DNA of 64,000 nt, taken from the NCBI RefSeq assembly GCF_026151205.1, contig NC_087075.1:15928571-15992570 (forward strand), in the 5' to 3' direction. Below the pieces are notes generated by a model that ran no database searches, was not told the origin of the DNA, and worked only from the letters and a program-made list of their open reading frames with translations. The stretch is from Bolinopsis microptera. Taxonomy: Eukaryota; Ctenophora; Tentaculata; Lobata; Bolinopsidae. Shown piece after piece: positions 34,865 through 64,000 of the stretch. The translations under genes were made by a program, and so were the position numbers. Within the stretch, counting starts at the first letter, position 1; each line of letters opens with the position of its first letter.

Positions 34865-34929
34865 ATGCTGGTAAGTGTCTAGGAAGATTGTTAGGAGAGA
34901 GTTGTTCTCCAGTTCGATGTCATAAACAC

Positions 34930-39469: not shown

Positions 39470-42400
39470 CTGTATGAACTTGTCAGTTGAAAGCGTGTCC
39501 CCCAGGTAGCTGACAACGTATTCTCGAACCTCTCTCGGAGACTCAACATCACGGAGAAACGAGATAAACGTCGGAACTGAGTTATTGATTGTTCAATTTA
39601 ATTTATCAAATATATAAATTAGTCAATCAAATATTTAATCGAATTTGTCTGTTTTTTATGTTTTAGATCAAAATACCAGCGAACAGGTACGAAGAAAAGT
39701 GATCAAAAGTTCGGACATTAAACTTTTGCTCAGGATTTCCACAGAAGCGTAAAAGTGAAATAAGTGAAATAAAACACACAAGAATGATAGTAATATGCAC
39801 GTTTTAGGGTAAGATTAAATAATTACTGCAGTTACCATGGTTACTGCAGTTACCATGGTTACCACCTAGTTACTGCAGTTACCATGGTTACTACAGTTAA
39901 CATGGTTACCACCTAGTTACTGCAGTTACCATGGTTACTACAGTTACCATGGTTACCGCCTAGTTACTGCAGTTACCATGGTTACTACAGTTACCATGGT
40001 TACCACTTAGTTACTGCAGTTACCATGGTTACCACCTAGTTACTGCAGTTACCATGGTTACTACAGTTACCATGGTTACCACCTAGTTACTGCAGTTACC
40101 ATGGTTACTACAGTTACCATGATAACCACCTAGTTACTGCAGTTACCATGATTACTACAGTTACCATGGTTACCACCTAGTTACTGCAGTTACCATGGTT
40201 ACTACAGTTACCATGGTTACCACTTAGTTACTGCAGATACCATGGTTCCTACAGTTACCATGGTTACCACCTAGTTACTGCAGTTACCATGGTTACTACA
40301 GTTACCATGGTTACCACCTAGTTACTGCAGTTACCATGGTTACTACAGTTACCATGGTTACCACCTAGTTACTGCAGTTACCATGGTTACTGCAGTTACA
40401 ATGGTTACTACAGTTACCATGGTTACCACTTAGTTACTGCAGTTACCATGGTTACTACAGTTACTATGGTTACCACCTAGTTACTGCAGTTACCATGGTT
40501 ACTACAGTTACCATGGTTACCACCTAGTTAGTTACCGTCTATGTGCTGGTTCTTGAAACCGGACACTTGAGATTCACACCAGATTGTAAACTCGTCCTTT
40601 GGGGTAGAGTTGGCGAACATGTCTAGTAATGGTGCCTGGTTGTTCTTCTTCCTGTGGGCAACATCCGGTTATAAGCGGTCACTGACTGGTCACCATGGGA
40701 TCACCAACAGGGCAGTCGGGGGAAAGAAGCGGTTGTTCAAGGTCACTATAATTGAAGCTTTCAAAAGTAGATTCAGGGTGTCGAAAACAATTTGTGGACA
40801 CAAAGTAAGTGGTATCCATATTCCTTGGCTAACGTTAGCACTTTATCAGAAATTGCAAATCACCAAAACCAATAATAAATGTTGATCCTGTCCGAAGAAG
40901 CACATGAAAGTTGAGAGCTACTTCAAGAGGCAGGATAACTTACTTAGAGGGAGCTTTAGGTTGCTGCTGCTGTTGCTGTTGCGGTTTCTTCGGCGGAGGT
41001 TTGGTCTGTTTCTTTGGAGAAGGTCTGGGATCATCTTCTAACATTCCCGCTACTGGGTTCCAGTCGTTGTTTTGGGCCTGTGTTCAAGGTTGGGTCAGTT
41101 CAAGATACTTTTAGAAGTTTTACAGAAAATGCGAAGCTGGCTGAATGTGAAACATTATATCCCCATGTCAGAACAATCGCAAAGTTTCCAAAATATTTGA
41201 AACCTAAAATTCGTTCCCTTCAATACAGATCATTCATTAAACAACACGCAAAACATCAGTCCACCTTACGAATCAACGCCAGCAAAAGTTACCACGCCCT
41301 CCCCCACTTACGTAGTTAAGATTCTGTTGCTGGGTTACCTGGAGGTTACTATGGTTACTCACGTAGTTAAGATTCTGTTCCTGGGTGGTCCTTCTCTCCT
41401 CCTCGCGCTGAATCTCCGCCAGAGATCTGGTCTTTGAGGGCTGCTTCTGTGTGGCCCATGTTGTAGCTCTAGATACTACTGGCTCAGGATGCGCTTGCGT
41501 TCTCTGAGGACAGTGAGGACAATGAGGACATTTGTTTATTAAAGCTAATCATAAAATCATCTTTGAATAAATTTCTAATTTGAGATACTTTGCTATGACC
41601 CAATTCTGGCAAATTTTAAGTTGTTCTGAAACATATAAAAGGTTCTTACAGGGGCGGATTTCTTCATCTTGGCCTCATCTTGCTGAATTTGAGAGAGCGG
41701 TATTGACACAGCATCAGGTTTACCCCACGTTTTCGTGGTGGGTTGATGAGTTCGTGTAGCAGATTTGGTAACGTTCGTTTTAGGCTGAAACAGTGGTAGT
41801 GTAACAAAATGTGTAGATTGTTTAACAGCTTGTGAGAGAGGTTGCTGGCGCCTTGCTAAGCAAGCATCTTCCACCATCTTCACCAAAACAAACACTGGCA
41901 GCTCAGGCAGTAAGTAGTCATGCTTCTAATCTATGTAAATCTGTACGAATCCCTTAATTTTTCCTTTTGTAAAGCTAGCCGCACAGGACTAAACTTGAAT
42001 GTCGACTGAAGAAAACCAACAACAAGTTGCCCCCCCCCCCCCTGCCCCCTCCCCAAGTTGTCCCCCCCCCCTGCCCCCTCCCTAAATTGTCCCCCCCCCG
42101 GCCCCCTCCCTCAGTTGTTCCACTAACCATGTTAGCCCAAGGATTCGTGTTCTCCTGCGCTGGAGGTGATTTAGACACCTTTGTTGCCCAAACATTTTCC
42201 TGTTCTCGTCTCTTTACAGCAGCAGCTTGTTCAGCGGCAGCATGCCGTGCCTGTTCTTCCCTTCTCGATTGTTCTTCACGGCGTAATTGCTCATCACGTT
42301 TGGCCTTCGCGTCAGCTTGACGACGAGCTTCTTTGATGGCTGATGCCTGAGAGAGTAACCCTGGTAACTGAGAGCTAGAGGTGTCTAGAGAGGTGTCAGA

Positions 42401-45400
42401 GTCACAAGATCGAGAGGTGCTCAGAGTCACAAGATTGAGAGGTGCTCAGAGTCACAAGATTGAGAGGTGTTCATAGTCACAAGATTGAGAGGTGCTCAGA
42501 GTCACAAGATTGAGAGGTGTTCAGAGTCACAAGATGAGAGGTGCTCAGAGTCACAAGATTGAGAGGTGCTCAGAGTCACAAGATGAGAGGTGTTCAGACT
42601 TCAGAGTCACAAGATTGCTTCTGAATTCAGTAATGATATATTTCGATTTTGGGAGCAAGCGAGGACAATCAGCTTATCAGTTAACCAGAGTCCCGATTAC
42701 TGTGGATAAAATGATTTAAATTGCACTGTCGAGTAATAGAAAAAGGTCACTTGAAACTCACGGTGGCTTCCTCCTGGGCCTTTGCGAGGGCCTTGGCTTC
42801 AGCAGCTGCCTGCTGCGCGGCTCGTCTCTCTTCAGCTACCCTGACTTCATCATCCCGCCTTTGCCTTTCTTCTTCATCTCTTCGACGCAGTTCTTCCTCC
42901 TTCAGTTTCACAAGATGTCGTTCTCTGGAAAATTTCACAGGTTAGGGTATGTACTGGGTTGATGGACGTAAAGTTAGGTGTTACATGTACAAGAAATAAT
43001 TAGAAGGTGGGCATTAGATTAAATAAGAGTGCACTGAAGAGAGTCGCATGATGTAACAATTATCTTTTGTTCCATCCTTATGTGGCAAAGAAGCGTTTTA
43101 TAAATCTTTATTCCACTGGGAAGTTTAAAAAATAGGATAATGTTTTTTTTAAATAGTGTATTTGATAAATAATTAATGTTGGTGGGAAATATCCATTATA
43201 TATTTTTCACATAATGCGATGATGTTTTGTAGACATGTGTGATGATGTGATGTCATAAATTTTACTTTACTTTACTACTTTACTTAACACATTTGAGATT
43301 TACGTTAAATAACTGACCGTTTTTAAGACATGCACATTTGTTTGGCTGTCAGTTGTCAGTTTCTCGACATGAATAATATAATATAAGGTTCCCAAAATAC
43401 ACGGAACAGTCTACGAACGGATTTAGCCCCGGCCTGCGCGGCTGACCTGGATAGTTAATTGCGCGGCGCCCGCGCGGTAAATGACGATTGCGAACAAAAA
43501 TAGGGACTAACTTTCGCCGTAAAAATGTTTTCGCGCGTTACGCATACTAACCTTGAACGTCGTATCTTGGCATTTTGCCCCAAATTTATGTTGAAACTTC
43601 ATGATGATCTACTACGGCTTACTCAAAGTACAAATTACGCAAGGGTAGCATTTGTGTCGGGATACAAGATATAAATCTTACAGCAATTAGTCTGGGAATC
43701 ACAAGCAACAAACTTTTCTCTCTCGCAATAATACTCAGAGCAACGTAACGCAGACACTGATTTAAAATCCACCAATAAGGTACATGATTAATGTAGAAGC
43801 AAGGTATTGAGACATTATCTAACGCTGAATAAAGATGATGCTATCGCACTACACTGTCACCATCGCACTAAATTAGTCCATTTTTGGCAACGATTGAGTT
43901 CACCTGGTCAATATTCTAAACTATTTATAGACAACCCTTTTATCGTGTTTATTGGTCCTGCAACACCATGTACGCCATAATTCATTGTGTCCCTGTACAG
44001 TATTTCCCGTTATGTCATGTATTTTATCGAATGACATTCTAATTTGTTTTTGAGCATGAAAATGTGAGAAGTATGAAATTTGACCTGATTCATACAGTAC
44101 CACTTCTAGCAAGTTTAACTTTTAATATTTGCGGTATATTTTAAAACATTTTCTAACTGCACATTCTGCAGAAACCCATGGGTAAATACATCCAGGTTCT
44201 TTTCAGATACCGTAATTATATGACACTAGTGACTAGATGCTAATATTAATTATAGTAATTATATGGAATCATCAGGAATGTTGTATCCAAAATTAGGGAT
44301 GAGATTATGTTGATCAAATAAAGATTACCTTTATCAGGAGTATTACCTGCTCAACAAGGTACCCATAATATTAGCAATATCATAATATATAAATGAAAGG
44401 AAGGTTAACTAGACATACTCATCTAGTGACTAGATGCTAATATTATGTGCATTATACTATTATACACCTGACAAAGCTACACAGAATGTCTTTCCGAAGA
44501 GTTTTGGTGTTCAATCGGTTCAATTACCAGTTATTTGTTGGAACAAGGGTAACCATGGTTTACAACTAGCCGGGTTAAGAAGACACCATGATGACGTAAT
44601 TTATGTTTCTCGGACACCGATCAGTATAATATGTACTTGTAGGGGTATTTTAAGAGTTAACGGACGTTATCTGTATTTGAGAGACAATTATATTATTTAC
44701 ATTCATTATTATTTGATTGTTTCACACTTTTCACATTTCATAATTTTATTACTAGGTGGAGGTGATGTTATTGACTTATTGAGGATTTGGGCGGCCAAAA
44801 AACTCCTGTTCTGAAAGTTGTCTTTTGTACTTGTTTCACTGACCCACGCTTTTTAGCATTTATACATTTCGGCCCATTTTATATGTTTGTTCGAATTGCT
44901 GTACATTTGTATACTTGCTATTTTGTAAAAGTTTTAAATCAAATCATGGTAACAAGGATGCTTTTCTATAAAAACTATTTCTTTGGCTACTCTTTTAGTA
45001 CTCGATATCTTTTAACACCAAAATATTATTACTATACACAACATCCAGATATTCTAACACATTGTAGACTTAAGATCCCCGAAAGTTACAAATTTGCTCC
45101 AACTAAATGTTTGTAACCCAAAAACCCAAAAAATTCAATCCAATCTGTACTGACGATTTTTTTTCTCTAAGGGATTTGTTTTTCAGGTTTCTTTTGGTTT
45201 TTTGGTTGGTTTTTTTGTTTTTAGTTCTACAATAAGCATACATTTAATCTTTAACTGTAATTCAAAAATGACCACATTAATTCAAAACCAAATTCAGAAG
45301 ATTATGAATTACTGTAAAATTTAGCAACTGATTCTAGATATTCTAGATATCAACTACTCTAGTAATATCTTAGTAAACTTTTACTGGAACTACTAATAAT

Positions 45401-48400
45401 TGTGTGCTCCTTCACAAATACTACTACTTGTGTGCTCCTTCATCAATACTACAACTAAACTAAAAAGTGGAATGAAATGCTCCCCTTCCTGGAAATGAGT
45501 GACTAGTGGTTACTAATGGTTACTAATGGTTACTAACTTACTAATGGTTACTAATGAAATGCTCCCCTTCCTGGAAATGAGTGAGTGATGTCGGACCACT
45601 TTCCACGTGGCTTCCACAATTCCGCCTAATTTTGTCATTGACATAAAGTAAGACAGCACAAATTGAGCACAAATCTTCGTAAAATAATTAATAAATGAAT
45701 ACAAGAAAACAGTGAAAAGGAGTGTAGATAAAGTGTAGATATAGCGGTATTAACTGTTTTTTAGGGCAGCAACTGGATGGAAAAAAGGCGGACAAAGATA
45801 AAAAAGGTTATTTTTCTATTTTTTTTCTTAAAAACAACAATTATATGCGCTTTTTAAAACAAGATCTTTCATTGTCCACTAAAAAAACCATCCAAATCAC
45901 TGCTTTGTTTTAAAGTTTTAAGAACCCATCGTAAAATTAAACATTCCAGTGCAATTCAAATTTCGAAGGTTAATATCAGGTTTCCTTTTCATAACATAGT
46001 TTCCTTTTCATAACATATTAAGGCAATTTTCAGTTTTGAAAACCACATTCTTGTAGTTGCTTTTCTTATATATTTGAAACGGTAGGTGTCCCCTTCCCCT
46101 TGATTTGCAAAACCAACGTCGAACACATGGTTAATGGTTATGTTAAAAAAGAAGGTAGCAGCCTCCTTTTCGGTTCCGAATAAATTTGTATGAAAATTAG
46201 AAATTTAAGTGCACTCGAAGTTCTAATTTTACGATGTAGTTCACACTAAGAGATAAATCATCCGGAATCATGCAAGGTAACCATGGTAACAAGGTAACCG
46301 TGGTAACAAGGTAACCATGGTAACAAGGTAACCATGGTAACAAGGTAACCATGGTAACAAGGTAACCATGGTAACAAGGTAACCATGGTAACAAGGTAAC
46401 CATGGTAACAAGGTAACCATGGTAACAAGGTAACCATGGTAACAAGGTAACCATGGTAACCAACTAACCATGGTAACAAGGTAACCATGGTAACAAGGTA
46501 ACCATGGTAACAAGGTAACCATGGTAACAAGGTAACCATGGTAACAAGGTAACCATGGTAACCAACTAACCATGGTAACAAGGTCGTTTAAGACCAGTTT
46601 AAGGTTTAATTCCAATGTCCATGACCCCTCATCTTACTCTCAGAAGCAGTTAAAGAGGGGTATGCAGCTGTAGAGGGTTTTAGATTAGTATCTTCCGGCA
46701 GTATGCTGTTTTATCATTTCCACCTCCGCTTGACCAGATTGATCTTCTGTCGGCAGAGTTAATCTGGTTCCAAGGACTCCCTGCCCTTATCATGAAATGG
46801 CCATCACCCCGGTCTTGGGGTTGCTTCCAGTTTTCTCCTTCAATAAAGTCAGGTTTTTCCCAGCCACTCTCCTCCACTCCAGCACATCTCCAGGAATTGT
46901 CCGAGACCATGAAATCGTTTCCTTCCGCATCCTTCATGCCTGCTACGATACCATAGCCACCACCACCATTGTAACATTTAACTGCTATGACCCGGGTGGG
47001 TGATGGAACACTGAGTGACGCTAGTGCCTGCCAGTTTGTGTCTGTGTACTTCTGAACTCCATCTATATAAACTGTTGTATGATCGTCACAGAATACCTTT
47101 AACGAGTATTCGCAAGGCTGGTCGTTGCATTCTTGTGTCTCCTCAGCATCTCCTACACAGTTAGATCCACCGTTAGCAGGGGCTGGGTCGGAGCAGCTTC
47201 TCGTTCTCTTCTGGGATCCTCCTCCGCAAGCAGCCGAGCAGTCTGACCAATCCCCGAAATCACTCCACTTCCCATCGATTATGCAAGGCTGATCGTTGCA
47301 TTCTTGTGTCTCCTCAGCATCTCCTACACAGTTAGATCCACCGTTAGCAGGGGCTGGGTCGGAGCAGCTTCTCCTTCTCTTCTGGGATCCTCCTCCGCAA
47401 GCAGCCGAGCAGTCTGACCAATCCCCGAAATCACTCCACTTCCCATCGATTATGCAAGGCTGATCGTTGCATTCTTGTGTCTCCTCAGCATCTCCTACAC
47501 AGTTAGATCCACCGTTAGCAGGGGCTGGGTCGGAGCAGCTTCTCGTTCTCTTCTGGGATCCTCCTCCGCAAGCAGCCGAGCAGTCTGACCAATCCCCGAA
47601 ATCGCTCCAGTTTCCATCAGTTGGGCAAGTGTGGCCACACTTTTTCAGGACTTGTTCAAGTTTACCGCATTTCCTCGAAGCCTTTTTCTTTAACTGACCA
47701 TCGCTGGATTCACAGCCCAGAGACGACTGGAAACCTTTCTGTAGGCACTTCCTGTTGTACTGCTTGATTTTCTTGTTGAGCTTCTTCTTCTTCAATGGAC
47801 ACTCGTACGAAGTAACGATTAACACTAAAAGTGTTAGCAAAACTACAGATGCGCAGAAATGTTTCATTGCTCGAGAGGGTTAAGTTGATAGGAGTAAACA
47901 AATTTGAATCGCCAAGTCGAAGTAATTTATGACTAAGTAAACTGTGAGTTTTCTTTCTAGGCGGGGATTCAGCCGTTTTTGAGTCGGTACGTAACAGCTG
48001 CATAACAATAGTCCTCACTCGTTTTGCCCTGAATGTCTCAATCCTTTAGATTCAAATCTCAACTACATTGTTCAATTATCTAGAAGTTTCATTATCGTCG
48101 GTCTTGCACCGAGGGCTAAATTTGACGACCTAACCAATTGTTTAATCTTCCAGCTCTCAAACTTTCAAGTTTAGACTGTCCCTCATTATTACATCGGAAC
48201 CAATATAATGGATATATTTCTTTGGTGCACAATTATAGTAGTGGTATGTCAACAAACTCCACCCCCAGTATAATAGTACTCCGTGCATATTAGTCATGAT
48301 GCGATGAGGGAAAGTCTTGACTGAAAACACAAAAACACAAAGACTTATTAAGAGACAACCGGTGCCAAACCTTGAAATTGTTGTTTTCTTGAAAACTGAT

Positions 48401-51400: not shown

Positions 51401-54400
51401 GGTTACTATGGTTACCCCCGGACCTGCTAATTACTGTTACTATGGTTACTAGGGTTACTATGGTTACTATGGTTACCCCCGGACCTGCTAATTACTGTTA
51501 CTATGGTTACTAGGGTTACTATGGTTACTATGGTTACTATGGTTACCCCCGGACCTGCTAATTACTGTTACTATGGTTACTAGGGTTACTATGGTTACCC
51601 CCGGACCTGCTAATTACTGTTACTATGGTTACTAGGGTTACTATGGTTACTATGGTTACCCCCGAACCTGCTAATTACTGTTACTATGGTTACTAGGGTT
51701 ACTAGGGTTACTATGGTTACCCCCGGACCTGCTAATTACTGTATGATACAAAGCGCCTTATTTTTGAGATTCTAGAGCACTCTAGATCCATTGACAATAT
51801 TAAATGATTCGGGAAGTGTTTGAAGTATGCAGCGCTTAAATGCTCCCGTTTAAAATAATATACATTTTCTGTCATGGATGACATTTCATCAAAGAAAGTG
51901 TCAAATGATTGTCAATTTTCAGCCAAAATTTTGAGATATGGGCAAAATGGGCATAATTTTCATTATTTTCAGGTCAAAATCAAAAAATCAAAAATAAATA
52001 TGTCTAACACATTATGCATTATTCATTGAGCTGAAATATAACTCTACCTCGCAACTAAAGATCAGCGAACACGATGTTTGGTTTTCACCACAACTCACAT
52101 TTAATTAAGCTGCTTTTAAGCCCATGCCCCCGCCCCCCGCCCCCCCCCCCCCCCCCCCCCCCCGGCCCCCCCCCCCCCCCCCCCCTAGTTAGTAGTTTGA
52201 CAGCCACTAAATGAATTGAGAGGTATCACACATGAACACTAAATGAATTGAGAGGTATCACACATGAAACACATCAGAATTATACATGGCAAATGACTCT
52301 CAGAACATTTTGATAGAAGACGTTACTCGCTCATTCCATTTGAAATGTGAGCTGATTAACAATACATTCTTAACATGCAGGGAATCTGAAGGAAGCAGCC
52401 AGCAGGACACACATTTATCAGAACGTGTTTATCTGATTGAGACGGTCAGTGGACAGATTGGTTACTAGGGTTACTATGGTTACTAGGGCTACTATGGTTA
52501 CTAGGGATACTATGGTTACTAGGGCTACTATGGTTACTAGGGCTACTATGGTTACTAGGGTTACTAGGGTTACTAGGGTTACTAGGGCTACTATGGTTAC
52601 TAGGGCTACTATGGTTACTAGGGTTACTAGGGTTACTAGGGCTACTATGGTTACTAGGGTTACTAGGGTTACTAGGATTACCAGGGTTACTATGGTTACT
52701 ATGGTTACTAGGGTTACTATGGTTACTAGGATTACTAGGGTTACCAGGGTTACTGTGGTTACTATGGTTACTAGTTGTACAGTACAAAGCAATCTACAAA
52801 TATCAGGACTTGACAGTTCAATTTGCCATCAAATTATATTACAGTTTGTACGAGGGTTGCCATGATGTCATGTCAAGTATACCGGCATATTTTTAAAGAT
52901 AAAACCATAATTTATACGGCAAATTACAGAGTTGACGAAGAACACCTTAAAATCTAAAATACCAACAACCTCTCCACTTTCTAGCTTTCTCAAAGTATTT
53001 CAAAATAAAACTTACTTCTCAAGTTTTATCCTCTCCTGTTCCAGTGCGTATCTAGCTTTCTCAGCCTGCTCCAGCTCGTGTCTCACCATAGTAACCATAG
53101 TAACCCTAGTAACCCTAGTAACCCTAGTAACTCTAGTAACCCTAGTAACCCTAGTAACTTACTTCTCAAGTTTTATCCTCTCCTGTTCCAGTGCGTATCT
53201 AGCTTTCTCAGCCTGCTCCAGCTCGTGTCTCACCTTAGTAACCCTGGTAACTCTAGTAACCCTAGTAACCCTAGTAACCCTAGTAACCCTAGTAACCCTA
53301 GTAACCCTATTAACTTACTTCTCAAGTTTTATCCTCTCCTGTTCCAGTGCGTATCTAGCTTTCTCAGCCTGCTCCAGCTCGTGTCTCACCTTAGTAACCC
53401 TGGTAACCCTAATAACCCTAGTAACCCTAGTAACTCTAGTAACCCTAGTAACCCTAGTAACTTACTTCTCAAGTTTTATCCTCTCCTGTTCCAGTGCGTA
53501 TCTAGCTTTCTCAGCCTGCTCCAGCTCGTGTCTCACCTTTTCTGCTTGTCTTATTCGCTCTAGTTCCAGTCTGGTGAAAGTGAATTAGTGAAAGTGAAAT
53601 CATTTACAAATAATTGAGGGTTTTACACAGTTACAATACTGAGTCAGCTCTTGATAGCAGATAATTTAAATTATATTAATTATGGATTCTGGTACCGGTG
53701 GGAGGCATATAGTTTTGATACCTGACAGTTAATCAAACACCAATCAAATCCCTGAGTCACTGTCACGTGTCAAAACAAAATGCCTCACTCCCGGCACTCC
53801 CCGCTACAATCCACATCTATCTATTATGAGTAACTTATCTAAATATTTTCAAACAATACATAATTATACAGAATTGCATGCTTCTAAATAAACCCAGATA
53901 TAAAAGGATAAAACCTATATATAGCCCAAATTTCCAGTAGCCTAGTATATTATTATATAGGATAGGACAAAGAAGACACTATCTGCCACACTTATAGAGC
54001 CTGGCAAACTCTAATCAAAGGTAAGTCTGGCAGTGGTTCACACTCTGTTGATATCTCTTTAATGAGACTTGATTGAGGCCTCTCAACTTCCCTAGTTGAG
54101 TGTGTCCCACAACCAAGCTCATTGCCTAGAAGTCCCACATTATTATAATGAACCTGGACATACGTGGCAAGTATCAGCTCTTGAAACCAAACCAAACCAA
54201 ACCAAATATTATTATATATAATATAGTATGCAGTCCATCAAGTACAAGATAAGTTTGTTGAGAGCAGTGACCTGCTAATTAATTAATTAAGTTACAAAAA
54301 CATGATTTCAGAATCGATGAAAAATTGAAGTTAGCGAAGAATTTTAATTAATAATAACTATTAAGTACTTAGTTAGTACTTCGTTAGTACTTAGTTAGTA

Positions 54401-57400
54401 CTTAGTTAGTACTTAATTAATACTTAGTTACTACTTAATTAATACTTAGTTAGTACTTAGTTAGTACTTAGTTAGTACTAAGTTAGTACTTAGTTAGTAC
54501 TTAGTTACTACTTAGTTAGTACTTAGTTAGTACTTAGTTAGTACTTAGTTAGTACTAAGTTAGTACTTAGTTAGTACCTAGTTAGTACATACCTCTCTTT
54601 TTCCTTTCTTATCTTTTCAGCTTCTTCCTCGAATAATTTGCTCTTTAATATTTCCTCCTCTCTTATCTTCCTCATCTGTTCCTCCTGGAATTACAGATTA
54701 TTGTATTGTATTGTATTGTATTGTATTGTATTGTATTGTATTGTATTGTATTGTATTGTATTGTATTGTATTGTATTGTATTGTATTGTATTGTATTGTA
54801 TTGTATTGTATTGTATTGTATTGTATTGTATTGTATTGTATTGTATTGTATTGTATTGTATTGTATTGTATTGTATTGTATTGTATTGTATTGTATTGTA
54901 TCAGACCTTTACAGATTAACTTGTGAGAGATGTTCGCGATTAAAAAGCTATAACTTGTAGCGAATAGCAAATTGCTAATTACAAATTAAATTATCATTCA
55001 AAATAAAAAATTACAAATAATCCCTCGCTAGACCTGTACCTGTTGTCTAATTACTAATTACTAATTACGCTAGACCTGTACCTGTTGTCTAATTACTAAT
55101 TACGCTAGACCTGTACCTGTTGTCTAATTACTAATTACTAATAACGCTAGACCTGTACCTGTTGTCTAATTATTAATTATTAATTACGCTAGACCTGTAC
55201 CTGTTGTCTAATTACTAATTACTAATTACGCTAGACCTGTACCTGTTGTCTAATTATTAATTACTAATTACGCTAGACCTGTACCTGTTGTCTAATTACT
55301 AATTACTAATTACGCTAGACCTGTACCTGTTGTCTAATTACTAATTACGCTAGACCTGTACCTGTTGTTGTTGTTCTTCAGCCAGTTTTGCTTCCATGAT
55401 TTGTCGCTGTGCTAAGAGGTATTTGTCGTTTTCCAGCTGGGCCAAGTGCTGTATTTCCTCCTGAAATTTAAAAAGGTTTTAATTATTTTGGATTTTTAAT
55501 TAGCAATATTAGATTGTTAGGGCTGAGATAAACTCTTTCTAAATCTCAAAAGATTTGGGTATGTTAGCCTAGCAGATATTAGTGGTTACTATTGGTTACT
55601 GGGGGTTACTATGGTTACTAGCAGCTATTAGTGAATCAAGGGAAGATTGTAAGTTGCTTTTCTATGGTATATATATATATATACAGGGTATTTCAAGAAT
55701 AATGTCCTGATTTTTAAAAACAATACATTTTTTTATAAAGGAGCAAAATGCCCATTATTGGTTGCCATTAGTTCATAAAGCTTACAAATTTAATTTGTTA
55801 AGCTCATTTGTTCCAGCGATTCAACTTTGTTAATTTTTTTGGCTCTGTTCCAAAAAGTCGAATTTTGAGAAAAATGGGGTTCACAAAAGAAACAAAACTC
55901 GATATTGTGAAGACTTATTGGATTTGTGGAAGCAGTGTGACAAGTGCTAGGCGTTTGCTACAGAAAAAGGACAAGTCTAAATTCAGCAATGATGAAAGGA
56001 CAATACGACGTCTTGTAAAGAAGCTAGAAACTGATTGTACCCTGATAAAGAACATGCGTACGGGTAGGCCGAAATCTGCTCTTTCTGAGAAGAATATCAA
56101 AAGGGTGCAAAGAAAATTAGAGAACAGTCCAAGGAGGTCAACCAGAACACTTGGTAGGGAGCTTAAGTTATCGACAACTTCAGTTTGGAGAATTTTGAGG
56201 AAAGAGCTGAAGAAGTTTGCCTAAAAAATTAAAATCAAACAGACACAAACTCCAAAAAATAGAGAACAAAGGACCGAATTTGGCAGCATGATGGCTGATC
56301 GCATCGAATCTGACTCAGAATTCTTGAAACAGATATTTTTTTCAGATGAGGCTCATTTTCATCTGAGCGGTCATGTCAATCGCCAAAATTGTAGGTTTTG
56401 GGCAGATGAGAACCCCTATGCAACAGTTGAGTCGCCTATCACTAGAGAGAAAGTCAGAGCTTGGATGGGGATCGGGTATCATGGTATTTTTCTCAAAATT
56501 CGACGTTTTGGAACGGAGCCAAAAAAATTAACAAAGTTGAATCGCTGGAACAAATGAGCTTAATAAATTAAATTTGTAAGCTTTATGAACTAATGGCAAC
56601 CGATAATGGGCATTTTGCTCCTTTATAAAAAAAATTATTGTTTTTTAAAATCAGGACATTATTTTTGAAACACCCTGTATATGGTATATATATATATTTC
56701 TGAACAGACTCGAGTAAAAACAGGATCAAGTCTTACAATGACATCATTAACACAGTAAACAAACAACCCAATTTATTTGTTAGTGAGTAGTGTTTAAGAA
56801 AAATAAACCTTTCCCTTGTCACTGTAGTTTTCTCCACAGTGTATTTAAGCAATAATTTATTAATTTATTCTAATAATTTATTAATTAATAAGTATATTTC
56901 ACCTCTTCTTTGACAAGTTTGCGTTGTTGTTCCAGTTTCACCGCCCTGTCTATCTCCTTTTTAATCTCCTCCGCTCTCCTTACCTGCTCACTATCCTGCG
57001 GGTTTTATAGCGTTACACACAGCCTCGTTACACACAGCCACGTTACACATAACTGCGTTACACACAGCCACGTTACACACAGCTGCGTTACACACAGCCA
57101 CGTTACACACAGCCACGTAACACACAGCCGCGTTACACACAGCTGCGTTACACACAGCTGCGTTACACACAGCCACGTTACACATAGCCACGTTACACAT
57201 AGCCACGTTACACATAGCCACGTTACACATAGCCACGTTACACATAGCTGCGTTACACATAGCTGCGTTACACACAGCTGCGTTACATAAAGTGAAAGCA
57301 ACGCGTTACACACAGCCACGTTACACACAGCCACGTTACACATAGCTGCGTTACACATAGCCACGTTACACACAGCTGCGTTACACATAGCTGCGTTACA

Positions 57401-60400
57401 CACAGCTGCGTTACATAAAGTGAAAGCAACGCGTTACACACAGCCACGTTACACACAGCCACGTTACACACAGCTGCGTTACACATAGCCGCGTTACACA
57501 CAGCTGCGTTACATAATGTGAAAGCAACGCGTTAGTAACGCCTAACAACTACGTTACACACAAGTAAAAAAGGTCACTTCAATGATCAAACCAAAAACAC
57601 CAAAATTGGCCCTGAAATCTAAATTTCTAGTTTATAAGACCGTTATAGCTGCTGGTTATTTGCACTTACCACGTTGAAGGTGTTAGTGAGACCGTTATAG
57701 CTGCTGGAGGTTTCCACCGTGCTCCCCCAGATACTGCCACTAGCACTGGTCGTCCAGGCGGGTACAGCTGCTGCTGAGGGGGTATGTTAGTTAGTGGGGG
57801 TTTTTATCCTTGAGGTCCCATATCACTTTTGATAGCTCGGTACTCAGTCTGTGCTTAGGATTTTTGAAGCTTTGTCGATGATTGTACCATCGTGTCTTAA
57901 AGCTGTTTTCTGTCAATCCAATATATGTCGAGTCCTTGTTTAATGCAGTTTTAACGGCTGCTTCGTAGACTATACATTTGGCCAGACATTGTCCTTTTAG
58001 GGGGCACTTTGAGGCGTCTCTGCAATTACACTATTTTTCTGGAGCTTTTCTCTTTTCAGATTGTTTCTCCAGGACTGATTTGTTGTGTCCTTTGAGTATC
58101 CTTTCCAAACTGGGCATGCAGCAATAGCTTATTTTCACGGTATTCCTATTGATTATTTTGTGTAACAGCAGATTTTTCGGGAAGTGCTTATCAATGAGAG
58201 CGAAGAACTTTCTTCCGATGTTGGTTGAAACATTTGCGCTGAATGGGGAAACGGATCGTTTGCCCGCCAATTTGATTTGGTTCAATTGTTCGAATTATAA
58301 TGCTCCTGCTTAAATGCAGTCGAGCACTCTCTTTGGGAAACCAACAACTATTTATTATTATTATTATTTACATATACGTACTTATATATAGATGGAACCG
58401 TTAAACTGCTAGATTTTTATGTGTGAATTCTTTCAGTCGAGGTTTCATTTTTGTTGACATTAAAAGCTAATCAACGTTTTTATTTCCACGTTTTTATTTC
58501 TACGGTCTAGAAGGTCATTAAAAGTTGTTCATCCTAAAAATATTAAAATTATCTCAAGCACATGTTAAAAATTGATCTTCAACTAAGTAAATTAACGTTA
58601 ATGTAGCTAAAGACATTAAACGATTCAATTATGTAATTAAGCTGCTCAAGTGATTCAATTATTTAATTAAATCTAATTAAATGATGAAGCTCAACTGAAA
58701 TAACCTCTTAACCTCCCCGTTAACTCCACTACCACTGTTCACACTGAATACAATAAGAACTCGTAACCAGCTTCACACGTATAATACACATAACAGGCGG
58801 GGTGTAACAACTAACACTCATGACTCAGTACAGAGATGTATAATGTATAATAATGTATTTAATGTATAAGGTCCTCGCTGCTCTTAGCCTCTTTAAATGC
58901 TTATTATTATTGCGTGGAGCTGCTGCATTATTGGGTATGTTAGGAGCATGCGGCTTATATTTCTAGAAGTTTTCAGATTATAGTTTGTGGATGAGTTTTT
59001 AACAAGATTGTGTTTTAAGTTCGTCTAGAAACCCCGGTTTAGGTAAATTATACTGACACGTACAGCATTGCATTTGTAATTTAGAGTGTAGACATTTGGT
59101 AAGATGTATAAAATATACACAATATGAAGGAAAACCACTCACATCAATATGCAATATGATACTAAAGTGCAACGTTACATGATTTACTTTGTTTACAATA
59201 CTATAAGTTATAGATCTTTAGTTTTACTGAAATATATAGAGTGAAGTCTGTAAGTAAAGTAGATAGAGTAATATGTAGAGTGAAGTGTTTAAGTAAAGTA
59301 GATAGAGTAATATATAGAGTGAAGTAGATAGAGTAATATACAGAGTGAAGTGTTTAAGTAACATAAACTGTGCTCTTTAATGTAGTCCTGAACAGAAACA
59401 TGCTTCAGAATTCTAATGTACTAGTATTGAAATGTAAAGCAATTTAAGTCCGGTATTTTCGTATGACATTTGCAATTCTAATGCCCACATTACAAAGATC
59501 AAATTGTATTAGAATATTATGTTGATCACATGCTATAATCTCACATTTTTTGAAAGTTATTAACTTTATTTAATTACGAGTATCACAAAGGTTATCATTG
59601 GTTGACACTAAGTGAGTAAGTGGGTTTATACTTTATTGTATTTACATAATATGTTTGAAAAAACTAAAAAAGAAGAACTGCCATTCAGAAGACTGAGAAA
59701 CACGTTCCCTCTATGTTCTGTCCAATCTCACTAATTGTACCACATGCCATAGAACACGTTGGATGACGTCATTATTGGATGACGTCATTATTGGATGACG
59801 TCATACCATAATAACAGGGGGCGACTTACCAGGGGACTGAGTGATGTGTCCTAGTTGGGATGTTTGCGGAGGGGGTGGCGACTTACCAGGGGACTGAGTG
59901 ATGTGTCCTAGTTGGGATGTTTGCGGAGGGGGCGGCGACTTACCAGGGGACTGAGTGATGTGTCCTAGTTGGGATGTTTGCGGAGGGGGCGGCGACTTAC
60001 CAGGGGACTGAGTGATGTGTCCTAGTTGGGATGTTTGCGGAGGGGGCGGCGACATACCAGGGGACTGAGTGATGTGTCCTAGTTGGGATGTTTGCGGAGG
60101 GGGTGGCGACTTACCAGGGGACTGAGTGATGTGTCCTAGTTGGGATGTTTGCGGAGGGGGCGGCGACTTACCAGGGGACTGAGTGATGTGTCCTAGTTGA
60201 GATGTTTGCGGAGGGGGCGGCGACTTACCAGGGGGCTGAGTGATATGTCCTAGTTGGGATGTTTGCGGAGGGGGCGGCGACTTACCAGGGGACTGAGTGA
60301 TGTGTCCTAGTTGGGATGTTTGCGGAGGGGGCGGCGACATACCAGGGGACTGAGTGATGTGTCCTAGTTGGGATGTTTGCGGAGGGGGCGACTTACCAGG

Positions 60401-63400
60401 GGACTGAGTGATGTGTCCTAGTTGGGATGTTTGCGGAGGGGGCGGCGACTTACCAGGGGGCTGAGTGATGTGTCCTAGTTGAGATGTTTGCGGAGGGGGT
60501 GGCGACTTACCAGGGGACTGAGTGATGTGTCCTAGTTGGGATGTTTGCGGAGGGGGCGACGACTTACCAGGGGACTGAGTGATGTGTTCTAGTTGGGATG
60601 TTTGCGGAGGGGGCGGCGACTTACCAGGGGACTGAGTGATGTGTCCTAGTTGAGATGTTTGCGGAGGGGGCGGCGACTTACCAGGGGGCTGAGTGATGTG
60701 TCCTAGTTGGGATGTTTGCGGAGGGGGCGACTTACCAGGGGACTGAGTGATGTGTCCTAGTTGGGATGTTTGCGGAGGGGGCGGCGACTTACCAGGGGGC
60801 TGAGTGATGTGTCCTAGTTGGGATGTTTGCGGAGGGGGCTGCGACTTACCAGGGGACTGAGTGATGTGTCCTAGTTGGGATGTTTGCGGAGGGGGCGACT
60901 TACCAGGGGACTGAGTGATGTGTCCTAGTTGGGATGTTTGCGGAGGGGGTGGCGACTTACCAGGGGACTGAGTGATGTGTCCTAGTTGGGATGTTTGCGG
61001 AGGGGGTGGCGACTTACCAGGGGACTGAGTGATGTGTCCTAGTTGAGATGTTTGCGGAGGGGGTGGCGACTTACCAGGGGGCTGAGTGATGTGTCCTAGT
61101 TGGGATGTTTGCGGAGGGGGCGGCGACTGCTTGTCTTCAGGCTGGAATGGTATGCGGCCACACTGCTGAATCATTATCTCTGTGGAAATTGGTGGAATGT
61201 TTATTTTGTTGGAGAAATTACAAAACATGCAAAATATTTAAGAGTTTGGTATATATATATATTATATGCTAGAGATATCTACTAGTGCGTTTGGAGTAAA
61301 ACGCCGATTACAAGAATAACTTTTAAATATAATTGAATTTCTCAAACTCTTCAAAATATATTATACCATAGGCCATAAAAACAAATCAAGATAAGATGAT
61401 GTGTTTTATAATTGCCGATACTCCAACATATTATCTACCTAATTTAGTAAACTGTTTGTCAGCAGAACGGTTCTTTTGCGATAGTCAAAACGCGACAACT
61501 AGCGCTGGATGGCGACAACTAGCGCTATCCAGCGCTAGTTGTCGCCATCCAGCGCTAGTTGTCGCTATCCAGCGCTGGATAACGCTGGCCAGCGCAAAAT
61601 ATATATGTTCGATAATTGTCGCTATCCAGCGCTAGTTGTCGCCATCCAGCGCTAGTTGTCGCCATCCAGCGCTAGTTGTCGCTATCCAGCGCTAGTTGTC
61701 GCTGGCTATGCGACACTGTCGCACGCGATAGTTTGCGATGGCCAGCGCAACTGGCCATCGCAGAAAACAGTTCGATAACTAGCGCTGGATAGCGACAACT
61801 AGCGCTGGATAGCGACAACTAGCGCTGGCCAGCGCTGGCCAGCGCTGGCCATCGATATCCAGCGCAAAATTTTTGCGCTATTACTCGTCAGCTAGCGCTA
61901 GCCAGCGCTAGCCAGCGCTAGCCAGCGCTAACCAGCGCTAGCCAGCGCTAGCCAGCGCTAGCTGACGAATAATATCGCAACTATATTGCGCTGGCCAGCG
62001 CTGGCTGACGAGTAATACTAATATCGAGCGTGCTAAATCACTTTACAGTCGATCTTCGAGATTGTTCTAAAAGGGCCCCCGATGGTTGTAAGTGTAACCA
62101 ACTTCAATCGATGCAATGTATTTTCGGACGCTAATTCCGAATCAACCCCCATGACATAGGGTTAAAATGCTCTCCTGACGAGATATTGGCGAAAAACTGT
62201 ATCGATCACGTGATATGACCGTATAAGGAAGTTAGTCTAATTTCTCGTTAGGGCTAGGGTTTCAGCATATGTTTTTGTTAAGGATTGGGTTAGGGTTAGG
62301 GTTGGGATCAGATTTATAGAGGGTTAGGGTTTCAAAAAGTCGTTCAGAACCAGCTAGAGTCAGAGAATGGGTTAAAAAGTCACGTGACAGTCGAGTGTAA
62401 AGTGATTAATCATCATCCGAGTAATATCGCAAGCATATGATTTTGATACATTGCGCTGGCTAGCGCTGGTTAGCGCTGGTTAGCGCTGGCTAGCGCTGGT
62501 TAGCGCTGGTTAGCGCTGGCTAGCGCTGGTTAGCGCTGGTTAGCGCTGGCTAGCGCTGGTTAGCGCTGGCTAGCGCTGGCTAGCGCTGGCTAGCGCTGGC
62601 TAGCGCTGGTTAGCGCTAGCTGACGAGTAATAGCGCAAAAATTTTGCGCTGGATATCGATGGCCAGCGCTGGCCAGCGCTGGCCAGCGCTAGTTGTCGCT
62701 ATCCAGCGCTAGTTGTCGCCATCCAGCGCTAGTTATCGAACTGTTTTCTGCGATGGCCATTTGCGCTGGCCATCGCAAACTATCGCGTGCGACAGTGTCG
62801 CATAGCCAGCGACAACTAGCGCTGGATAGTGACAACTAGCGCTAGATGGCGACAACTAGCGCTGGATGGCGACAACCAGCGCTGGATAGCGACAGTTATC
62901 GAACATATATATTTTGCGCTGGCCAGCGTTATCCAGCGCTGGATAGCGACAACTAGCGCTGGATGGCGACAACTAGCGCTGGATAGCGCTAGTTGTCGCC
63001 ATCCAGCGCTAGTTGTCGCGTTTTGACTATCGCAAAAGAACCAGCAGAAAGTCTAATCTGTGGTTACTAGTGGTTACTAGTGGTTACTATTGGTTACTAT
63101 TGGTTACTGGGGGTTACTATGGTTACTATGCAATGGTTACTAGAGGTATTTACCTAATTTAGTAAACTGTGTGTCAGCAGAACGTCTAATCTGTGGTTAC
63201 TAGTGGTTACTAGTATAGTGGTTACTATTGGTTACTGGGGGTTACTATGGTTACTATGCAATGGTTACTAGGGGTATTTACCTAATTTCGTAAACTGCGT
63301 GTCAGCAGAACGTCTAATCTGTGGTTACTAGTGGTTACTAGTGGTTACTAGTGATTACTATTGGTTACTATTGGTTACTATGGTTACTGTGGTTACTATG

Positions 63401-63669
63401 GTTACTATGCAATGGTTACTAGAGGTATTTACCTAATTTAGTAAACTGTGTGTCAGCAGAACGTCTAATCTGTGGTTACTAGTGGTTACTAGTGGTTACT
63501 ATTGGTTACTATGGTTACTATGGTTACTATGCAATGGTTACTAGAGGTATTTACCTAATTTAGTAAACTGCGTGTCAGCAGAACGTCTAATCTTAAGATC
63601 CATCCCGAAGTAACCCTCTTTAAACCAACCAAACATTTTGACAGAGTCGAACGGTCCTTGAGTGTTACC
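39470..63669 (-). CDS. GIGYF1/2-like GYF-domain protein, 14 internal exons
   Basis: Adaptor that in animals binds proline-rich partners through its GYF domain and represses translation with the cap-binding protein 4EHP. Exons (minus): 63669-63555, 61179-59830, 57773-57670, 56995-56903, 55460-55362, 54684-54593, 53570-53466, 42924-42762, 42346-42128, 41784-41650, 41503-41363, 41077-40944, 40651-40536, 39576-39470. All phases agree: 991 codons. GYF core: GPFDSVKMFGWFKEGYFGMD and IRRSADTQFTKL, then CGRIPFQPEDKQ. A 23-unit proline-rich array follows, then a Glu/Arg/Gln coiled coil (EEQMRKIREEE, ELEQAEKARYALEQERI), two W...LSQIQ / SLAEIQREEE motifs, and the C-terminal LLDMFANSTPKDEFTIWCES with VPTFISFLRDVESPREVREY, all in GIGYF order. 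The 5' exons lie outside the window; the exon after 39470 was not identified. The exon 41784-41650 acceptor and the 10.5-kb intron are the least certain points. Confidence 0.9.
39835..40535. repeat. 47-bp minisatellite starting at a GIGYF splice donor
   Basis: About 14 units built from TTACTGCAGTTACCATGG, TTACTACAGTTACCATGG and TTACCACCTAG. On the minus strand the donor GACG|GTAACTAACTAGGTGG passes straight into the array. It fills most of the intron between exons 40651-40536 and 39576-39470. Confidence 0.92.
41306..41400. repeat. in-frame duplication of a GIGYF exon end with second donor
   Basis: On the minus strand CAGAATCTTAACTAC|GTGAGT (exon end 41363) is repeated 51 bp later as CAGAATCTTAACTAC|GTAAGT (exon end 41312). 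The 17 codons between are open and include minisatellite sequence. Using the second donor adds 17 residues without changing the frame. Confidence 0.85.
42027..42112. repeat. C-rich tandem repeat
   Basis: Two to three copies of a CCCCCCCCTGCCCCCTCCC-type unit in the intron after GIGYF exon 42346-42128. Frames through it are simple sequence. Confidence 0.85.
42380..42610. repeat. 25-bp minisatellite
   Basis: About nine imperfect copies of GAGAGGTGCTCAGAGTCACA with AGATT, in the intron upstream of GIGYF exon 42346-42128. Confidence 0.88.
42925..46260. other. intronic region without recognised gene
   Basis: Part of the 10.5-kb GIGYF intron. The plus-strand open frames at 44434-45116 have no domain and unusual composition. 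A short GGTTACTAAT repeat is at 45505-45560. Nothing else is supported. Confidence 0.5.
46275..46582. repeat. 17-bp minisatellite
   Basis: About 18 copies of GGTAACCATGGTAACAA. Leu/Val/Tyr-rich frames here are artefacts. Confidence 0.95.
46680..47867 (-). CDS. secreted thrombospondin type-1 repeat protein, single exon
   Basis: 395 codons without introns. An N-terminal signal peptide (MKHFCASVVLLTLLVLIVTS) is followed by a lysine/cysteine-rich segment of about 60 residues. Then come three thrombospondin type-1 repeats of 57 residues, each with WSDFGDWSDCSAACGGGSQK, RSCSDPAPANGG and CNDQPC. The C-terminal domain of about 150 residues (DDHTTVYIDGVQKY, VIAVKCYNGGGGYGIVAGM, WRCAGVEESGWEKPDF) looks like a beta-sandwich carbohydrate- or matrix-binding module; its name is not certain. 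The three repeats are almost identical in DNA (171-bp units), implying recent duplication or conversion. Expected outside the cell. It lies on the same strand inside a GIGYF intron. Confidence 0.9.
   Translation of the reverse strand: MKHFCASVVLLTLLVLIVTSYECPLKKKKLNKKIKQYNRKCLQKGFQSSLGCESSDGQLKKKASRKCGKLEQVLKKCGHTCPTDGNWSDFGDWSDCSAACGGGSQKRTRSCSDPAPANGGSNCVGDAEETQECNDQPCIIDGKWSDFGDWSDCSAACGGGSQKRRRSCSDPAPANGGSNCVGDAEETQECNDQPCIIDGKWSDFGDWSDCSAACGGGSQKRTRSCSDPAPANGGSNCVGDAEETQECNDQPCEYSLKVFCDDHTTVYIDGVQKYTDTNWQALASLSVPSPTRVIAVKCYNGGGGYGIVAGMKDAEGNDFMVSDNSWRCAGVEESGWEKPDFIEGENWKQPQDRGDGHFMIRAGSPWNQINSADRRSIWSSGGGNDKTAYCRKILI
48407..50335. mobile_element. candidate element with inverted ends and internal 318-bp tandem repeat
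   Basis: GTTCAAACCTGGTTGGTGGT followed by TTTGTTTCA at about 48418-48446 recurs inverted at about 50294-50322. Inside, a unit of about 318 bp is repeated 2.3 times (starting near 48683, 49000 and 49330), giving two sister 80-codon frames (48935-48693 and 49251-49009). The frames are probably by-products. No coding domain or target duplication was recognised. Confidence 0.45.
50540..51045. repeat. GGTTACTAGGGTTACTAGTAAC minisatellites
   Basis: A short array at 50540-50620 and about five 37-bp units at 50870-51045 (ACTATGATATAGCCTGG plus GTTACTAG repeats). The two are in opposite orientation. Confidence 0.85.
51245..51740. repeat. 61-bp minisatellite, about 8 copies
   Basis: Unit GGACCTGCTAATTACTGTTA followed by CTATGGTTACTAGGGTTAC and CCCCC. 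Copies differ in the number of internal TTACTATGG steps. Confidence 0.92.
52128..52186. repeat. poly-C tract
   Basis: Nearly uninterrupted C run with two or three G. 51750-52127 and 52187-52440 hold nothing recognised, apart from a 28-bp direct duplication (AAATGAATTGAGAGGTATCA) at 52208-52265. Confidence 0.9.
52455..52775. repeat. GGTTACTAGGGCTACTAT minisatellite
   Basis: 9-bp steps TTACTAGGG, CTACTATGG and TTACTATGG in variable order. The Thr/Val or Asn/Pro-rich frames are artefacts. Confidence 0.93.
53015..53465. repeat. three extra copies of GIGYF coiled-coil exon 3' part
   Basis: The 71-bp exon end (minus strand GTGAGACACGAGCTGGAGCA to AAACTTGAGAA) and its GTAAGT donor recur at about 53018-53088, 53163-53233 and 53316-53386, separated by TTACTAGGG minisatellite. 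Copies look identical to the real exon end at 53466-53536. Possible acceptors (TACTAAG) come from the minisatellite, but splicing one copy to another would create AAG TGA, so they are probably not used in series. Confidence 0.92.
54360..54592. repeat. 11-bp minisatellite of TACTAAC at a GIGYF splice donor
   Basis: On the minus strand the intron starts GTATGTACTAACTAGGTACT and continues as about 20 copies of GTACTAACTAA. Each unit contains TACTAAC, the canonical intron branch-point sequence, directly behind the 5' splice site. Confidence 0.9.
54697..54901. repeat. (TTGTA)n microsatellite, about 40 copies
   Basis: Uninterrupted 5-bp repeat beginning 13 bp beyond the acceptor side of GIGYF exon 54684-54593. 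All ORFs in it are artefacts. Confidence 0.97.
55030..55365. repeat. minisatellite carrying GIGYF donor copies
   Basis: Units of about 37-46 bp with CGCTAGACCTGTACCTGTTG on the plus strand. On the minus strand each reads CAACAG|GTACAGGTCTAGCG, the same as the real donor of exon 55460-55362 (CAACAG|GTACAG). About eight extra donor copies lie downstream of the true one. Confidence 0.9.
55684..56677 (+). mobile_element. Tc1/mariner-superfamily element, internally deleted
   Basis: Ends CAGGGTATTTCAAGAATAAT and, inverted, CAGGGTGTTTCAAAAATAAT, with TA on each side (target duplication). Inverted arms extend about 190 bp. It encodes a broken transposase and sits in a GIGYF intron. Confidence 0.9.
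55874..56557 (+). pseudogene. Tc1/mariner-like transposase remnant
   Basis: The first ORF (55874-56224) has the N-terminal helix-turn-helix part (MGFTKETKLDIVKTYW, RTGRPKSALSEKNIKRVQRK, TSVWRILRKEL). After a stop, 56288-56557 has the first catalytic block (IFFSDEAHFHLSGHVNRQNC, RFWADENPY). It then runs directly into the right inverted repeat (KIRRFGTEPKKL), so the later catalytic residues are deleted. Not functional. Confidence 0.85.
57008..57545. repeat. 15-bp minisatellite
   Basis: About 33 copies of GTTACACACAGCCAC or GTTACACACAGCTGC, with two CATAAAGTGAAAGCAACGC interruptions marking a higher-order unit. It lies just upstream of GIGYF exon 56995-56903. Confidence 0.95.
57791..58285 (-). 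pseudogene. Penelope-like element C-terminus with GIY-YIG nuclease
   Basis: The frame reads NRNTVKISYCCMPSLERILK, CNCRDASKCPLKGQCLAK, IVYEAAV and STYIGLTENSFKTRW, then STELSKVIWDLK, typical of the Penelope GIY-YIG endonuclease end. One in-frame stop at 58031-58033 breaks it and no reverse transcriptase precedes it. Its natural stop (CAC TAA) is only 18 bp upstream of a GIGYF acceptor, so the remnant forms the end of that intron. Confidence 0.85.
58290..59800. other. intronic region without recognised gene
   Basis: AT-rich. A short repeat of GTAGATAGAGTAATATATAG with AGTGAAGT is at 59250-59350, and three GGATGACGTCATTATT units at 59760-59800 directly precede the proline-rich array. Confidence 0.5.
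59801..61130 (-). repeat. 57-bp coding tandem array with a splice donor in every unit, 23 units
   Basis: Coding unit SPPPPQTSQLGHITQSPGK (19 codons; a few units have one proline fewer, 54 bp). Each unit ends CCTG|GTAAGTCG (two units CCTG|GTATGTCG), a consensus donor in phase 1, the phase required by the next GIGYF exon at 57773. The frame is open through all 23 units. Confidence 0.95.
61469..63042. mobile_element. 1.57-kb foldback element made of AGCGCT repeats
   Basis: Ends GGTTCTTTTGCGATAGTC and its exact complement. The flanks AGCAGAAC (61461-61468) and AGCAGAAA (63043-63050) form an 8-bp target duplication with one mismatch; other array copies read AGCAGAACGTCTAATC. Both arms (about 560 and 630 bp) are dense in AGCGCTAGTTGTCGC, CCAGCGCTGG and TAGCGCTGG and are mirror images around a 375-bp centre. 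An 8-bp duplication fits hAT-type integration. No transposase is present. Confidence 0.92.
62034..62408. mobile_element. 375-bp MITE with telomere-like repeats, centre of the foldback element
   Basis: Inverted ends TAAATCACTTTACAGTCGA and TAATCACTTTACACTCGA. The interior has TTAGGGTTAGGGTT. A diverged, inverted relative of its right half is at 13485-13617. No clear target duplication. Confidence 0.75.
63043..63600. repeat. minisatellite with copies of the GYF exon 3' end and donor
   Basis: On the minus strand the exon end (ATTAGACGTTCTGCTGACAC, AGTTTACTAAATTAG) plus donor GTAAATACC is repeated after the true copy (donor at 63554) at about 63431, 63285 and 63152. A fourth copy is split by the foldback element (61429-61468 plus 63043-63056). 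GGTTACTAGT-type minisatellite separates them. Confidence 0.92.
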
Positions 63670-64000
63670 CTGAAATATTTTATTAAGTTATGTAAACGGT
63701 CCTTGAGTGTTACCCTGAAATATTTTATTAAGTTATGTAAACGGTCCTTGAGTGTTACCCCGAAATATTTTATTAAGTTATGTAAACGGTCCTTGAGTGT
63801 TACCCCGAAATATTTTATTAAGTTATGTAAACGGTCCTTGAGTGTTACCCTGAAATATTTTATTAAGTTATGTAAACGGTCCTTGAGTGTTACCCTGAAA
63901 TATTTTATTAAGTTATGTAAACGGTCCTTGAGTGTTACCCTGAAATATTTTATTAAGTTATGGAAACAGTCCTTGAGTATTACCCTAAAATATTTTATTA
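63648..64000. repeat. 45-bp array of the GYF exon acceptor
   Basis: Minus-strand units of TTACATAACTTAATAAAATA then TTTCAG|GGTAACACTCAAGG, that is, intron end, acceptor and first exon bases. About eight copies run off the window edge. The copy nearest the exon (63669) is the one used in the model. Confidence 0.92.

Follow-up and report, generated by a model that had tools for sequence, protein, structure and literature searches.

Do 23 splice donors lying in one reading frame allow a gene to vary the number of repeats in its protein, or are they what is left when a tandem repeat grows over the end of an exon? The question is raised by a 64,000-nucleotide (nt) stretch of the ctenophore Bolinopsis microptera (contig NC_087075.1, positions 15,928,571 to 15,992,570, hereafter called the window), in which a GIGYF-like gene on the minus strand contains an exon, at 61179-59801, that is made up in its 3' part of 23 tandem units (the ladder exon). 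We propose, with a probability of roughly 0.6, that the array arose by tandem expansion across the exon-intron boundary, that an early donor fixes the exon, and that the remainder of the array is mostly intron.

A ladder of splice donors beside a GYF domain

The unit structure, the phase and the open frame of the array can be read directly from the window. All 23 units terminate in CCTG↓GTA(A/T)GT, with GTAAGT in 21 units and GTATGT in two; the unit size is 57 nt in 20 units and 54 nt in three, and the three indels of the array are all of one 3-nt type. Tandem Repeats Finder (TRF) reported 23.1 copies of a 57-nt period with 95% matches and a score of 2408, and because of this score the array as such is far beyond chance. 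From the one acceptor (first exon base 61179) the 23 donors define exon lengths of 105 to 1350 nt, every length being a multiple of 3, and all 23 donors are in phase 1 within one common frame, which is open from a point 5' of the acceptor to the TGA at 59803-59801 (478 codons from stop to stop). The next exon (57773-57670) continues in phase 1, and any window donor would yield an in-frame message; skipping of the ladder exon would also preserve the phase, but drop the end of the GYF region. The number of units, the hexamers after CCTG, the phase, the coordinates, the frame open across all donors and the phase-1 requirement at 57773 had been reported in a preliminary description of the window, and all were recounted and found correct.

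The gene itself is identified by its GYF exon (63669-63555; 115 nt, frame 0 at the start and phase 1 at the end), which scored 55.1 bits against PF02213 (cut-off 25.7), so that the earlier assignment of a GYF-domain gene beside the array is supported. Beyond the GYF domain the GIGYF-like name is a reading by eye against the human protein, to which we take the IM.Q.CGRIPF, SGSIW, coiled-coil and VPTFISFL-like stretches to correspond; a Pfam search with the C-terminal pieces given returned no family except a weak TAF4 match.

In U1 pairing the 21 GTAAGT donors are equal (-9.1 kcal/mol), and the GTATGT variant reaches -5.3 kcal/mol in the ladder context. For nine other tested donors of the gene the values lie between -5.2 and -10.2 kcal/mol, one donor being stronger than the ladder GTAAGT and eight weaker. 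The statement that both GTATGT deviations keep a good donor has to be qualified: their U1 pairing is the weaker one, but a GTATGT donor does serve another exon of the gene (end 54593), where the better context gives -8.3 kcal/mol. Since 21 equal donors pair well with U1, the use of several donors in the window copy, occasional or even broad, is plausible.

The second gene copy and the choice among donors

Genome-wide searches covered 264.65 Mb in 232 contigs, and a query with the GYF family turned up a second GIGYF locus on the same contig, 311 kb away, with its GYF exon at C4:15680908-15680794. This locus is colinear with the window from ~41 kb to ~77 kb, i.e. beyond the window end; 82 of the 99 chunks of 400 nt match at 84-100% identity, and the locus may represent a recent paralog or else the alternative allele, retained in the scaffold. 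The array there counts 33 units, compared with 23 in the window, and contains indels of -2 (unit 9), -1 (units 17, 20 and 22) and -3 (unit 29); one of the 33 donors is destroyed (unit 26). Donors 1-8 are in phase, a stop is met at donor 9, and donors 17-19 regain the length phase, yet lie past the stop. The 2-nt loss in unit 9 is a CG, not a homopolymer base, and is accompanied by two substitutions, and the three 1-nt losses have a linked substitution in common; because these losses carry linked substitutions, random read errors are an unlikely cause.

Like the loss of frame, the intactness of seven exons can be read directly from the second copy, these exons differing from those of the window by 15 synonymous and 2 nonsynonymous changes. 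Five of the seven show 14 synonymous and 2 nonsynonymous codon differences with AG and GT retained (binomial p 5e-7 against 26% synonymous expected), and the two further exons 1 and 0; two stretches with guessed starts were excluded from this count, 41833-41650, which differs by 3 nt in length between the copies, and 42950-42762, which has no open frame as cut. Because of the synonymous excess (14 versus 2), the second copy appears to be under purifying selection in its other compared exons. Of the 13 distinct types of substitution seen within the arrays, 6 are synonymous, compared with 31% expected (p 0.19), and for this reason no clear coding constraint is indicated there. With the frame lost from unit 9, only donors 1-8 of the second copy are predicted to yield full-length protein, and one of these early donors would have to serve if the ladder exon is included in the full-length product.

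A simple history would account for these observations. The 57-nt unit consists of the last ~52 nt of a coding exon and the first intron bases (GTAAG), and a minisatellite may have expanded over this junction; every unit would then carry a 5' splice site in the same phase because the unit spans the exon end and the intron start. Most likely the exon ends at an early donor (donor 1, or another among donors 1-8) and measures ~105 nt or somewhat more, and the remainder of the array would usually be spliced out as intron; its removal would make the expansion tolerable, with copy number and frame free to drift later. In the window copy the frame happens to remain open, and longer in-frame isoforms could leak out. 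Which donor is used and the neutrality of the extra repeats are what we infer; the extra donors are probably harmless by-products for the most part and not a dial for protein length. As to the first duplication, an origin through an 11-nt match between exon and intron (AGTCGCCCCCT) was suggested by the window copy and contradicted by the second, and it was rejected because the partial unit that closes the second copy is a different one and comes with additional sequence.

Several points weigh against early-donor use. All 23 window units are open and in phase, which is beyond what neutrality demands, and the window array is unusual in staying open where four other ladders in the genome (described below) close at once. 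Nothing in the sequence appears to mark the first donor as special, because U1 pairing is the same for the 21 GTAAGT donors, and among identical donors use of the intron-proximal one is also known. It might also be that the second copy is a damaged allele, or that the assembly introduced its indels in error; where the window exon ending at 54593 has GTATGT, the second copy reads GTATTA, a possible weakening.

The alternative that survives best, which we regard as possible but unlikely, is that many of the 23 donors are used at random to give GIGYF proteins of varied repeat number, with the second copy limited to donors 1-8. It is favored by the phase and open frame of all 23 donors, by the strength of 21 of them in U1 pairing, by the fit of every choice to the next exon, and by the band ladder that splice sites at repeat boundaries give in reverse-transcription polymerase chain reaction (RT-PCR) of UBC, according to the available part of PMC10809524. 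The second copy loses its frame from unit 9, however, so that a wide range is not kept there, and the window units (PPGK, SPGK and SPGM are present) lack any PPG with a hydrophobic residue directly after it, which is the type of ligand motif that the available part of PMC12171015 names for GIGYF2; since this motif is absent from the window units, self-binding of the array by the GYF domain is not suggested. According to the preliminary description, the cell could make GIGYF forms with 1 to 23 repeats by donor choice alone. Any window donor is indeed in frame, but the second copy, constrained elsewhere, would have only donors 1-8 usable; a selector tuned for 1 to 23 repeats is thus unproven, and the second copy weakens the case for it. 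We likewise consider it doubtful, and a little more so than random donor use, that donor arrays act as generators of repeat number, with up to 23 (window) or 8 (second copy) choices per transcript and ladders recurring in the genome; if this were true, spacing or composition beside the GYF domain would differ from molecule to molecule.

It is improbable that the whole array is a constitutive exon, in which the last donor (59829) is always used and a proline-rich tail of ~430 residues lies beside the GYF domain. The window frame is open throughout, and the intron-proximal preference mentioned above would suit this arrangement, but the second copy read to its last donor hits stops from unit 9, though its seven exons are intact, and the window would have an internal exon of 1350 nt with 22 upstream donors ignored. 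An artefact, with the array, its copy number or the second copy stemming from misassembly of a repeat-rich heterozygous genome, is very improbable, for although the second copy resembles a retained haplotype by its place in the same contig and its chunk identities, and the neighboring annexin gene is also duplicated (98%, inverted), the two arrays differ in unit order with linked unit variants, many similar arrays exist elsewhere in the genome, and the second array of 33 units argues against a pure artefact, the exact copy numbers being assembly-dependent.

Repeat load, other ladders and neighboring features

The GIGYF region is rich in local repeats: of 1500 positions drawn at random 36% had a local near-copy, as had 43% of 1000 random GT positions, and local-repeat positions made up 503 of 1500 in introns and 115 of 838 inside exons (ladder exon excluded). 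Four of 12 GIGYF donors, the ladder among them, and one of nine acceptors lie in local repeats, and as a class the GIGYF donors are not enriched in local repeats over random positions. A donor trapped in an array is thus the expectation from the gene's repeat load. The junctions of the gene found inside arrays are the GYF-exon acceptor, the GYF-exon donor, the end of the exon at 55362 and the coiled-coil exon at 53.5 kb (Table 1); the array at 55026..55361 is a second exon-end donor array of the gene, and its units contain stop codons.

Seven other GGTAAGT clusters were fetched (L030 and L031 were picked for clusters already seen there), and four were counted as presumed exon-end ladders, with 44 (L027), 5 (L028), 5 (L030) and 27 (L031) GGTAAGT sites. 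None of these four arrays stays open from end to end in any frame; in whichever frame is open longest upstream, read-through stops 0-6 codons past the first donor, so that the first donor would have to serve. L026 and L029 were rejected because they have no long upstream open frame, and L032 because its coding repeat lies on the opposite strand.

Genome-wide counts of three-fold ladders, which are overlapping matches and are inflated by long arrays, were 6130 for GGTAAGT versus 66 reversed, 10885 versus 33 for GGTAACT, and 1456 versus 196 for AGGTGAGT; GGTAACT is an imperfect control, as its U1 pairing is weak and yet the GIGYF donor at 40535 reads GTAACT (-5.2 kcal/mol). A TRF sample of 144 kb with 110 arrays, taken from the window, its flank, the other GYF locus and four arbitrary 10-kb stretches and not selected for ladders, contained GGTAAGT in one array, the ladder itself (0.39 expected), GTAAGT in four (1.55 expected) and GGTAAC in 16 (2.03 expected). 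GGTAA-type arrays are common in the genome, without a clear preference for full donors. The counts do not support a drive towards splice donors across the genome: the weak-donor GGTAACT ladders outnumber those of GGTAAGT, and the ladder counts are therefore no proof that splicing drives the arrays.

Table 1. Features of the ladder exon, of other GIGYF exons and of presumed exon-end ladders elsewhere in the genome (↓, splice junction)
Feature	Position	Strand	Observation
Ladder exon up to first donor, 105 nt	61075..61179	-	End of GYF region (IMIQQCGRIPFQPEDKQ) and repeat unit 1
Ladder-exon acceptor, ATTTCCACAG↓AGATAATG	first exon base 61179	-	Identical in second copy
First ladder donor, CCCCCTG↓GTAAGTCGC	G of GT at 61074	-	Identical in second copy
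Tandem array, 23 units, mostly SPPPPQTSQLGHITQ(S/P)PGK, each with terminal 5' splice site	59820..61128	-	TRF row and unit table
23 ladder donors	59824..61074	-	U1 duplex -9.1 kcal/mol (GTAAGT), -5.3 (GTATGT)
Ladder donors 1-12, G of GT	61074, 61017, 60960, 60903, 60849, 60792, 60735, 60681, 60624, 60567, 60510, 60453	-	
Ladder donors 13-23, G of GT	60396, 60342, 60285, 60228, 60171, 60114, 60057, 60000, 59943, 59886, 59829	-	GTATGT at 60342 and 60057
GYF-domain exon, donor TTAG↓GTAAAT	63555..63669	-	PF02213; 3 synonymous, 0 nonsynonymous versus second copy
45-nt array across GYF-exon acceptor, most units AATATTTCAG↓GGTAACACTCAAGGACCGTT	63650..64000	-	Acceptor 18-mer with 7 local copies; exceptions TTTCGG (two units) and TTTTAG (one)
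GYF-exon end with donor, four copies	63070..63593	-	TRF periods 128 and 122; donor 18-mer with 3 further local copies
Next GIGYF exon, phase-1 acceptor	57670..57773	-	5 synonymous, 0 nonsynonymous between copies
42-nt array after exon 55460-55362, units ACAACAG↓GTACAGGTCTAG	55026..55361	-	Donor 18-mer with 8 local copies
Coiled-coil exon (53570-53466), its end with donor repeated three more times at a 147-nt period	53009..53570	-	Donor 18-mer with 3 further local copies
Exon-end ladder	L027:4075		Sushi match below cut-off, E 0.0038
Exon-end ladder	L028:5212		Dynein AAA_9 match below cut-off, E 0.0007
Exon-end ladder	L030:4996	-	No family
Exon-end ladder	L031:4624		Activin-receptor domain above cut-off, E 0.00017

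Other repeats and elements lie in and around the gene. Between the GYF and ladder exons (61480-63040), AGCGCTAGTTGTCGC-type repeats occur in both orientations and resemble a large hairpin, judged by eye and from TRF rows. Shortly upstream of exon 57773 there is a broken mobile-element remnant (57794-58294, minus strand) with a weak GIY-YIG match (E 0.0008, below cut-off). An 11-nt array (AAGTACTAACT, ~20 copies; 54364-54588, minus strand) directly follows the donor at 54592 and has TACTAAC, the yeast branch-point consensus, in most units. An open frame at 46680-47879 (minus strand), which has three repeats of 171 nt and by eye resembles thrombospondin, apparently lies in a GIGYF intron on the same strand, and related DNA is present at many sites in the genome. 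A 25-nt array with 8.6 copies (42388-42598), located upstream of a GIGYF exon, extends over several kb in the second copy (C4 ~15653.3-15658.1 kb), so that the two copies differ very greatly in the length of this array. Among the 53 matches listed for a G-protein-coupled receptor, none lies near 15.64 Mb. Large open reading frames occupy 31085-34957 (minus strand), one resembling by eye an endonuclease of the long interspersed nuclear element type, and an annexin-like exon (by eye) at 127-957 (minus strand) has a 98% copy, inverted, 112 kb away (C4:15816517-15817347).

Known parallels and significance

In human salivary proline-rich protein genes, splicing within proline-rich coding repeats can alter the number of repeats in the mRNA; the sites there are cryptic ones inside the repeat exon, unlike the full donor ladder of the GIGYF array.

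A close parallel is human UBC, in which, as far as the available part of PMC10809524 describes it, splice sites at ubiquitin boundaries produce a ladder of isoforms with varied monomer number, considered stochastic by its authors, and introns of unit-multiple length are reported as enriched in human tandem repeats. Both genes combine a coding tandem repeat, splice sites at the unit boundaries and a unit that is a multiple of 3, so that repeat number can change without loss of frame. The UBC ladder was demonstrated by RT-PCR, whereas the GIGYF ladder, with a splice site at the boundary of each of its 23 units, is known here from sequence alone. The UBC sites read AG↓GT and serve as donor and acceptor; the GIGYF sites (TG↓GT, in CCTG↓GTAAGT) have no AG before the cut and could serve as donors only, with a separate acceptor downstream. 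A CAG is present in each unit in phase 0, and splicing there from a phase-1 donor would shift the frame. The repeats of UBC are functional domains, and those of the GIGYF array are of low complexity.

Tandem repeats at exon-intron boundaries with varied copy number and altered splicing are described for primate duplicated genes in the available part of PMC2812944. The GIGYF array likewise extends across the end of a coding exon, donor included, and its copy number is unequal between the gene copies; the primate repeats, however, are described as forming novel introns, some through cryptic splice sites, whereas in the GIGYF gene an existing donor would have been multiplied. Intron gain by tandem genomic duplication, as outlined in the available part of PMC4974935, also ties tandem duplication to a change of splice sites, but here the start of an existing intron would have been copied and no new intron is proposed. 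The assertion that no case of this kind had been described was therefore too strong for the class as a whole, given the UBC ladder (PMC10809524) and the boundary repeats (PMC2812944); a donor-only ladder like the GIGYF array was not found with the few phrasings tried on titles and the beginnings of abstracts among the top-listed papers of the open-licence literature.

The locus offers a natural series of 21 identical and two weaker donors, in steps of 54-57 nt ahead of one acceptor and in two copies with different frames, and would be a near-ideal test of whether position alone, i.e. how long the exon is or how far away the acceptor lies, decides the choice of donor. It bears on how minisatellites that span an exon boundary are tolerated in a translation-control gene, and it indicates that a ladder of designed appearance can come about merely through the presence of a donor in the repeat unit.

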